Positions 41,121 through 42,752 of a stretch of 64,000 nucleotides of DNA are shown here, piece by piece (within the stretch, counting starts at the first letter, position 1; each line of letters begins with the position of its first letter). A model generated the notes under the pieces. The model saw only the letters and a program-made list of their open reading frames with translations, searched no databases and was not told the origin of the DNA. Position numbers and translations under genes: made by a program. Origin of the DNA: Erythrobacteraceae bacterium E2-1 Yellow Sea (lineage in GTDB: Bacteria > Pseudomonadota > Alphaproteobacteria > Sphingomonadales > Sphingomonadaceae); assembly GCA_014983025.1 (NCBI GenBank), contig JADCLP010000001.1, positions 806,001 through 870,000 on the forward strand. Direction: 5' to 3'.

Positions 41121-41311
41121 GGTCGTAATACTCTCAATCTAAAGCTGTGCCGATGCCATCATGAAACCGGCGCGTCCGACTCTCCGCCATTGGCGGGGCC
41201 GGAAAGAAGCGTGCCGTTAAGGGAAAGGGCCGCCTAAGTCAACGCCGTACATACGCCTTTTTACATCGAACGATACTGGCGCGCACCGGGGGGCGTGCTA
41301 ATAGCGTGGCA

Positions 41312-41833
41312 ATGCGGATATCCATATTTCATCGGTACTGCGCCGGAATGCTGGCGACATTGGCTTTGGCAGGCTGTTCATCCGCCTCCCATAACTACCC
41401 CTCTCTCGCCATTCGCGATGCAGAACGGGTCTCTGGCACCTTTGCCGTGACACCAGGCACCGGTGATCAGCTCGGGCCTGCTCCGGCGTCACCAAATGTG
41501 CTCGAATCGCTTCCAGAACAGCTTGTTCTGTCACAAACCGCACATGACAGCTTTATGGGTCTGTCTGCAGAAGCAGAACGGCTGGTGCTGGCCGCACAAG
41601 GTACTGATACAGACAGCAATGCATGGGCCGCCGCACAAATTGCGCTGGCGCAGCTCGAATCGCAACGCAGCCAGTCTGCAATCGCATTAGCCACTCTGGA
41701 CTTGCATTATGCCGATGCTTCTTTGGGTTTTACGGCGCGTGAAGAAATTGACGCCGTGCGAAGCCAGGTTTTGAGCACGCTTAGGCAAGAGGATGAAGTG
41801 CTGGCGCGTCTGCGCTCCGCGATGCCCGATTGA
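41312..41833 (+). CDS. Unknown lipoprotein
   Basis: A 173-aa protein starting at ATG 41312 with a lipoprotein signal: charged start, hydrophobic GMLATLALAGC with the lipidated Cys near 21. The mature part is helical and rich in Ala, Gln, Ser and Glu (LSAEAERLVLAAQGT ... ALAQLESQRSQSAIALATLD), suggesting a periplasmic helical bundle. I do not recognise a family. It is divergent from rplU and convergent to the small RNA locus at 41844-41976. Confidence 0.7.
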   Translation: MRISIFHRYCAGMLATLALAGCSSASHNYPSLAIRDAERVSGTFAVTPGTGDQLGPAPASPNVLESLPEQLVLSQTAHDSFMGLSAEAERLVLAAQGTDTDSNAWAAAQIALAQLESQRSQSAIALATLDLHYADASLGFTAREEIDAVRSQVLSTLRQEDEVLARLRSAMPD

Positions 41834-41843
41834 TCTGATTTAC

Positions 41844-41976
41844 AAAAAATAGGCGCGGGGTCGGATTTCCGACCCCGCGCAACCTGCTGGCACCCTTCCG
41901 GGAAGGAACGGGGCATAGTTTTGCGGCTATCGTCACCACCGCAAAGCCCCGCGGCAGCACGGGTGCATGCAAGATG
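41844..41976 (-). ncRNA. Candidate FNR-activated small RNA
   Basis: A predicted ~133-nt minus-strand transcript. The start near 41976 is set by a -10 element (41983-41988) and an FNR/FixK-type box centred 41.5 bases upstream. The RNA can fold strongly: GCACCC pairs with GGGTGC, GGGGC with GCCCC, TTTGCGG with CCGCAAA, and CCTTC with GAAGG. It ends in a 12-bp G-C hairpin plus six Us. The CU-rich TTCCTTCC segment could pair with ribosome binding sites. Only an 11-codon ORF without a ribosome site lies inside. It does not match SRP, 6S, tmRNA or known riboswitch consensus as I know them. It may alternatively be the 3' UTR of the moa operon. Confidence 0.55.
41853..41880 (-). terminator. Strong Rho-independent terminator (leftward)
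   Basis: GCGCGGGGTCGG (41853-41864) pairs perfectly with CCGACCCCGCGC (41869-41880) around four bases. On the minus strand the stem is followed by CTATTTTTTG, a proper U-run; on the plus strand it is followed by AACCTG. It is therefore oriented to end minus-strand transcription, not the lipoprotein gene. Confidence 0.9.
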
Positions 41977-41982
41977 AGTAAG

Positions 41983-41988
41983 CTTATG
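41983..41988 (-). promoter_or_regulatory. -10 element of the candidate small-RNA promoter
   Basis: CATAAG on the minus strand (4 of 6 with TATAAT), separated by exactly 22 bases from the FNR-type box, the spacing of class II FNR-dependent promoters. No good -35 element of its own is present, as expected for an activator-dependent promoter. Confidence 0.55.
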
Positions 41989-42010
41989 ATGACAGAAAAA
42001 CTGGGCCGCC

Positions 42011-42024
42011 TTGATACAAGTCAA
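42011..42024. promoter_or_regulatory. FNR/FixK-type binding site (TTGATACAAGTCAA)
   Basis: Matches TTGAY-N4-RTCAA with both half-sites complete. It lies 10 bases beyond the moaE stop and reads toward the candidate small RNA. Centred at 42017.5, it would sit at -41.5 for a start at 41976. No FNR/FixK gene is in the window, so the regulator must be elsewhere. Confidence 0.7.
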
Positions 42025-42034
42025 GGAACCAAAT

Positions 42035-42481
42035 TTATTTTTCCCATCGTTCGCGATCGCTAAAATCCTGTTCGCGCGGCTCAATCCAATGCCAGCCATC
42101 GCCACGCTGTTCGCGCTTCCAGAACCAGGCCGCACTTTTGAGGTGATCCATGCAGAAATCGACCGCATCGATTGCGTCGCGCCGGTGAGTTGCCGCAGCA
42201 GAGACCACCACAATCGGTTCTCCGGGCAGAATCACACCGATTCGATGGACCATCAGCAGCCCCATAAGATTAAACCGTGCAAAGGCGTGGTCTGCCAGAT
42301 CGTGCATGCCCGGCAGGGTCAGCGGTTCATAATGCGTCAGCTCCAGCGCCTGCACATCCGTCTCACCCCGCACTTCACCGACAAAGGTACAAACGCCGCC
42401 AAGCCCTGGATTGGCCTGTGTGAACGGGCCAATCAGCGTGCCTGGATTGAAAGCACGGTCAATCAGGCGGATATCACGCAT
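42035..42481 (-). CDS. moaE: Molybdopterin synthase catalytic subunit MoaE
   Basis: A 148-aa large subunit of molybdopterin synthase, which inserts two sulfurs from MoaD into cyclic pyranopterin. Typical stretches are GGVCTFVGEVRGE (near 29-41), LELTHYEPL, MVHRIGVILPGEPIVVV (near 78-94), ATHRRDAIDAVDFCMDHLK (near 98-116) and WFWKRE with the catalytic Lys. ATG 42481 restores the family N-terminus; it follows moaD by 10 bases. Confidence 0.95.
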   Translation of the reverse strand: MRDIRLIDRAFNPGTLIGPFTQANPGLGGVCTFVGEVRGETDVQALELTHYEPLTLPGMHDLADHAFARFNLMGLLMVHRIGVILPGEPIVVVSAAATHRRDAIDAVDFCMDHLKSAAWFWKREQRGDGWHWIEPREQDFSDRERWEK

Positions 42482-42491
42482 CGGCACTGTT

Positions 42492-42752
42492 TCAGCCCCC
42501 GCTGACAGGCGGCAGCAGTGCGATCTCATCACCATCGCGTGCGATCAACGCGGTTTTATCTGCCAGCACAGCGCCATTCAGTGCAAGCTTGGTCCTGTCT
42601 GCAAGCGCGGCCTCTGCAATCGCTGTGTTGAGATGATCTTCCATCAGAGCGAGCAGATCTGGCCAGTTGATTGCGCCGGAAGTCAAAGCGCATTCACATT
42701 CCGCACGGCCCGCCAGGTCAGCCAGCTTTCCCAGAAAAACCAGAGTGATCAT
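42492..42752 (-). CDS. moaD: Molybdopterin synthase sulfur-carrier subunit MoaD
   Basis: An 86-aa ubiquitin-fold sulfur carrier ending in the essential Gly-Gly (LLPPVSGG), whose C-terminus becomes a thiocarboxylate. LNGAVLADKTALIARDGDEIALL is split across the last third. It overlaps moaA by 4 bases (ATGA). Confidence 0.95.
   Translation of the reverse strand: MITLVFLGKLADLAGRAECECALTSGAINWPDLLALMEDHLNTAIAEAALADRTKLALNGAVLADKTALIARDGDEIALLPPVSGG

Follow-up and report, generated by a model that had tools for sequence, protein, structure and literature searches.

A probable deletion scar behind an FNR-type promoter downstream of moaE in an Erythrobacteraceae genome

Class II FNR-activated promoters have the FNR box centered at -41.5 and can do without a -35 element, and FnrS of E. 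coli is an FNR-controlled small RNA. The reference list of PMC8595263 has an entry for Durand and Storz 2010. Among the matches listed for literature searches on Sphingomonadales small RNAs and on Erythrobacter fnr and small RNAs, the titles and the beginnings of the abstracts do not contain the RNA discussed here, and the terms used for the origin of small RNAs from pseudogenes found nothing.

The stretch of DNA analyzed here, called the window, is 64,000 nucleotides long (C11:806001-870000), and positions are counted from its first letter. A preliminary description proposed a dedicated FNR-controlled small RNA at 41844-42024. This is not supported, because relatives have a membrane-protein gene, here called mem, under this promoter, and the RNA segment consists of the remains of the 3' ends of mem and of a neighboring fnr gene. 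The element is best explained as a relic of the mem and fnr tails behind an old FNR-type promoter (probability about 0.83). Any short RNA from the locus is probably a by-product and not a dedicated regulator.

The FNR-type promoter behind moaE

The locus follows a moaA-moaD-moaE row, named from ORF reading. The last gene, moaE, occupies 42035-42535 on the minus strand, and its end at 42035 is 10 bp before an FNR-type box on the same strand. The box (42011-42024) reads TTGACTTGTATCAA on the minus strand and TTGATACAAGTCAA as the letters stand at 42011-42024, and ancestrally it would have been that of mem. On the other side is a convergent lipoprotein-like ORF (41306-41833, plus strand), which in relatives is placed behind fnr. 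No match to fnr was found at the window locus.

The assignment to class II FNR-type promoters is well supported because relatives conserve the same promoter. The box had been described as a full FNR palindrome; the site and its type hold, but it agrees with TTGAT-N4-ATCAA at 9 of 10 positions, so the palindrome is not perfect. The class II geometry that was also proposed is exact, with 22 bases between the box and the -10 hexamer CATAAG (41983-41988, minus strand, read from 41988 to 41983). The box thus lies near -41.5 with a matching -10, and the expected RNA start is at about 41975-41976 on the minus strand. The FNR-like box pattern has 17 sites genome-wide, compared to 2 for a reversed control pattern; this excess, together with the 66 of 78 loci (detailed below) that share the box, the 22-nt spacer, and the A at -11, places the window box beyond chance. 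A sigma-70 scan of the region gave no promoter-like sites; the scan demands a -35 and a T ending the -10, and the window site has neither. A second FNR-like box is found at G000:C11:883287-883300 (L131), with TATCCC 22 nt behind it. It is 29 nt ahead of an ORF that, from its sequence, resembles a universal stress protein.

The ancestral locus and the remnants of mem and fnr

The distribution of genes behind moaE in relatives indicates what the promoter once served. Loci were searched for with patterns derived from moaE of the window itself. The search yielded 99, and the 80 best of these form a near sample, not a census. Their titles give Erythrobacter, Porphyrobacter, Altererythrobacter and relatives, or just a higher rank. 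With the window added, 78 of the 81 loci have at least 900 bases after moaE and were scored, while L056, L071, and L104 were dropped because too little DNA lies behind moaE. The gene order in relatives is moaE, box, mem, convergent fnr, and lipoprotein gene. Among the 78 scored loci, drawn from the best 80 of 99, 66 (window included) have a box no more than about 120 bases behind moaE, mem is matched over at least 100 residues in 68 (partially in two and not at all in eight), fnr is present in 68, and box, mem, and fnr occur together in 56. Base -11, the second position of the hexamer 22 nt behind the box, is A in all 66 boxed loci, and the first base of the hexamer is T in 46, C in 19, and G in one. 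The mem start codon is 50-56 nt after the box in all 52 loci where this was measured. From the conserved box, the A at -11, and this spacing it follows that the window has kept, in its box and -10, what on sequence comparison is the former promoter of mem. Two example mem genes, L117:2286-2711 and L123:2035-2469, both on the minus strand, have an FNR-box promoter ahead of them and are convergent with fnr. In L120 the fnr product carries CETCPVRDSAAC close to the N-terminus, and its best match is FnrL, below the curated cut-off. In a set of 60 promoter sequences, including four that do not belong to the 80 named loci, most had a pyrimidine-rich tract between the -10 and the mem start, immediately after the -10, that is complementary to the mem Shine-Dalgarno. 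The complementarity may be mere composition, because most of the tract precedes the predicted RNA start.

The product of mem is a membrane protein of about 141 amino acids that ends in LPVLVLLWGLAVVTIAATI before the stop, and its gene lies between moaE and the convergent Crp/Fnr gene. Two mem proteins were scanned against Pfam and NCBIfam, and neither had a family above the cut-off. The AlphaFold model is poor (mean pLDDT 51, pTM 0.29) and has three long helices. A profile search of 196 genomes of the order gave a match at E <= 0.001, some of them weak, in 64, and the genome of the window is among those without one. Synonymous-site constraint at the 3' end, which could hint at an RNA function, was not seen in 67 distinct mem genes, where mean synonymous identity is 0.51 over the whole gene and about 0.48 in the last 22 scored columns. 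These results point to an uncharacterized membrane-protein family whose genes, in most relatives covered here, accompany fnr and an FNR-type box.

The proposed RNA body is made up of the ends of these two genes. The last 22 or so codons of mem are at 41913-41978 on the minus strand (LLILHAPVLPRGFAVVTIAAKL, compared to VLVLPVLVLLWGLAVVTIAATI in relatives), with 41962-41978 weakly supported, and alignment with fnr-bearing relatives places the last 20 or so codons of fnr at 41853-41914 on the plus strand (RGVGFPTPRNLL, compared to RGIELVDPAHLQ). In an alignment of the window with 14 relatives the mem tail is in frame and ungapped. The candidate core (41921-41950) corresponds to the 3' end of mem in relatives, and both the CU-rich segment TTCCTTCC and the stem of the terminator derive from fnr codons on the opposite strand. 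Positions 41853-41961 (109 nt) share 80% identity with G049 over the 3' end of mem and the sequence beyond it (E 2.2e-19). This is the best match in the genus outside the window's own genome, and G049 has an intact mem. Local alignments to eight relatives were compared with 500 simple letter shuffles, and for each relative none reached the observed score. For six of them the aligned span takes in both the mem tail and the former fnr sequence, and for L058 and L101 the mem core only; upstream of 41961 the alignment is weak. The segment is therefore homologous to intact orthologs at the same place. The preliminary description found no credible ORF, and this stands for the window, where the segment has a TTG-started frame of 63 amino acids, but the sequence itself is homologous to coding DNA. 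The mem remnant has lost its start codon, Shine-Dalgarno, and stop, so it cannot give the intact mem protein.

An assembly error as the source of the deletion is scarcely credible. The window is represented by a single assembly, but the locus is inside a long contig, the remnants carry many substitutions and not just a junction, and neither a protein search of the genome nor a profile search at E <= 0.001 found mem elsewhere.

Partial emptying of this locus has occurred repeatedly. Ten of the 78 scored loci (best 80 of 99) are without a full mem and ten are without fnr. The other partly emptied loci are L042, L046, L054, L058, L076, L102, L103, L108, and L109, of which L108 retains a mem start, and those included in the moaA+moaE tree are scattered over it. 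The tree places the window beside L054/L058 with a support of just 0.40, so an event common to the three is not established. The plus strands of L058 (about 1980-2310) and L054 (about 1910-2240) have an FNR box, a -10, a hairpin with a CCTCCC loop, a mem stub, and a terminator-like hairpin. The stub is in frame and encodes 35-37 amino acids, the last mem helix with its stop. The CCTCCC hairpin has about 10 bp in folded fragments and, by eye, 12 bp in L058. This form is found in only two genomes of the genus, and the folds of the whole RNAs are unremarkable (z -0.8 for L054 and -1.5 for L058). The L054/L058 element could be an FNR-driven regulatory RNA or a leader.

These two loci also bear on whether a mini membrane protein resembling their stub is still encoded in the window remnant. 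Both keep an open last-helix frame with a stop, against which the window frame is ungapped. In the window remnant, however, the sole start is a TTG that lies some 4 nt from where the RNA is expected to begin, there is no Shine-Dalgarno, the helix contains H, P, and R residues, and no stop remains, all of which make a surviving mini-protein very improbable.

The terminator hairpin and the folding of the RNA

The hairpin appears to be older than the loss of fnr. The 12-bp stem with a leftward U-run that had been reported was recovered by a terminator scan, which found two sites (0.7 +/- 0.8 in shuffles), the other being a 5-bp hairpin on the plus strand. The terminator-like hairpin is at 41853-41880 on the minus strand, with 11 of its 12 stem pairs G-C, and the leftward TTTTTT tract is at 41844-41849; its stem derives from fnr codons. 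The six-T tract of the window is longer than those of the fnr-less relatives aligned. The analyst chose 12 hairpins from 15 aligned sequences for a covariation analysis, and five of them are inside fnr genes. Stem positions pair in 99.3% of cells, and sliding the hairpin partners lowers pairing to 33-51%. Four stem pairs changed on both sides, a number reached in 12 of 500 shuffles, and seven cells are doubly changed, compared to 1.8 in shuffles (0 of 500); this is a small, hand-chosen set in which kinship among the sequences can itself exceed shuffles. Terminator-like hairpins with compensatory changes are seen inside the last fnr codons of L101, L023, L120, L087, and L061. Overall the alignment suggests that the hairpin already existed in the last fnr codons and was retained after fnr was lost.

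The segment could instead belong wholly to the moa mRNA, as its 3' end and terminator, behind an FNR box that no longer works. moaE ends so close to the box on the same strand, compensatory changes are found in the hairpin, and the sigma-70 scan shows no consensus promoter, which makes this an unlikely but serious alternative. However, the box and -10 have retained their sequence and spacing after the deletion, and fnr-less relatives with a full mem (L075, L077, L084, and L115) also keep the box. Even with a usable promoter, the hairpin may chiefly terminate moaE transcripts along with those begun at the box.

Most of the structure in the RNA resides in the terminator. About 130 structured bases had been reported; the 147-nt RNA folds better than shuffles (z -5.0), but the signal comes mostly from the terminator (z -5.9 alone), and the 95-nt body without it has a z of -2.5, with 5 of 200 shuffles as good. 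The CU-rich segment, said to be in a small hairpin, is partly in a 3-bp stem but partly in a loop. The terminator stem is the one part in which compensatory pair changes were looked for, and they are present there. Close relatives keep the box and the hairpin, but the intervening stretch encodes protein in them and is not conserved as RNA.

These data can be weighed against the idea that a selected, trans-acting, FnrS-like small RNA was born from the remnant and pairs with mRNAs via the C/U stretch under low oxygen. The class II promoter is intact, the terminator is strong, the body folds somewhat better than shuffles, and the genome has an FnrL-like regulator. On the other hand, the body derives from coding sequence, and the C/U stretch comes from former fnr codons, whose complement it is. 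The whole 261-base query has a full-length match in none of the 113 other genomes of the genus. Among 298 family genomes (own included) three others match, in part, and the longest match (G129) is to an intact mem locus. The preliminary description knew of no described RNA with this sequence, and an Rfam search of 4001 bases with E up to 5 found nothing over 41844-42024; this too counts against an FnrS-like RNA, which is improbable. Known RNA families gave three sub-threshold Rfam matches in the 4001 bases, none overlapping 41844-42024.

Oxygen sensors and comparison with known systems

The genome encodes an FNR/FnrL-type regulator with presumed cysteine ligands away from the moa locus. It is at G000:C26:32166-32879 (L124:946-1662) and adjoins a cydB-like frame. 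The protein has CQTCSIRNRAIC near its N-terminus, the cysteines of which we take to be FnrL-type ligands. Its best NCBIfam match is FnrL (E 4e-68, 229 bits, compared to a cut-off of 300), and the match of the cydB-like frame is also below the curated cut-off. A second Crp/Fnr protein is encoded on contig C31. An FnrL homolog is named in PMC10674011 for Porphyrobacter sp. ULC335.

A survey of 114 genomes of the genus, own included, at E <= 1e-30 shows that the two kinds of Fnr tend not to occur together. Proteins at least 64% identical to the cyd-linked FnrL are found in 11 of the genomes, and seven of these have no match of the other kind, which is 34-38% identical. The remaining 103 comprise 94 with the other kind only and nine with neither. 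A Fisher test on presence and absence of the two kinds gives p = 7e-5, with kinship ignored and several of the genomes incomplete. The distribution fits an oxygen-sensor swap after which the moa-linked fnr was lost, although G065, with a locus lacking fnr and a genome without a match of either kind, does not fit. The FnrL-like regulator, the 17 versus 2 boxes, and the box kept in fnr-less relatives make a low-oxygen transcript of about 130 nt from the predicted window promoter plausible.

The gene-relic explanation can be set out as a series of steps. The ancestral locus would have had mem, convergent with fnr, under a class II FNR-type promoter behind moaE. Comparison with relatives indicates that fnr was lost from the locus in the window lineage and that mem also suffered a deletion, which removed most of the gene, roughly from the transcription start to codon 119. 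As a consequence of this deletion the promoter would face about 22 decayed mem codons, the decayed fnr tail, and the hairpin terminator. The FnrL-like regulator encoded elsewhere in the genome can probably still use this promoter, and low oxygen would then yield an untranslated by-product RNA of about 130 nt ending at the terminator. A counterpoint is that the spacer, the -10, and the terminator have all stayed intact, which need not be the case in a locus that is purely dead. It is doubtful, though conceivable, that the sensor swap orphaned the promoter of the old neighbor and that this promoter now drives a newborn small RNA composed of what is left of the genes; the window and L054/L058 would then represent two stages, or two births, of regulatory RNAs under FNR control. 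If the relic RNA is functional, it would be a case of small RNA birth from gene decay that can be traced in relatives.

The locus shares features with three described kinds of element. Like FnrS, the window RNA would be short, terminator-ended, and under an FNR box; it differs in having no Rfam match, in not being kept as RNA in relatives, and in having a body of former coding sequence. The window resembles class II FNR-activated promoters in its box, its 22-nt spacer, and its -10, which has A at -11, and its genome encodes an FnrL-like regulator, but the gene once served has been deleted and the promoter here is a predicted one. Like pseudogenes and gene relics with an orphan promoter, the window is homologous to intact orthologs, has lost the neighboring gene, and is without start, ribosome site, and stop. 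It differs from such relics in that promoter and terminator both survive, and for this reason it resembles a small RNA gene. The window form, found in one genome only, shows that a gene relic with an intact promoter, a decayed body, and a strong terminator can mimic a small RNA.
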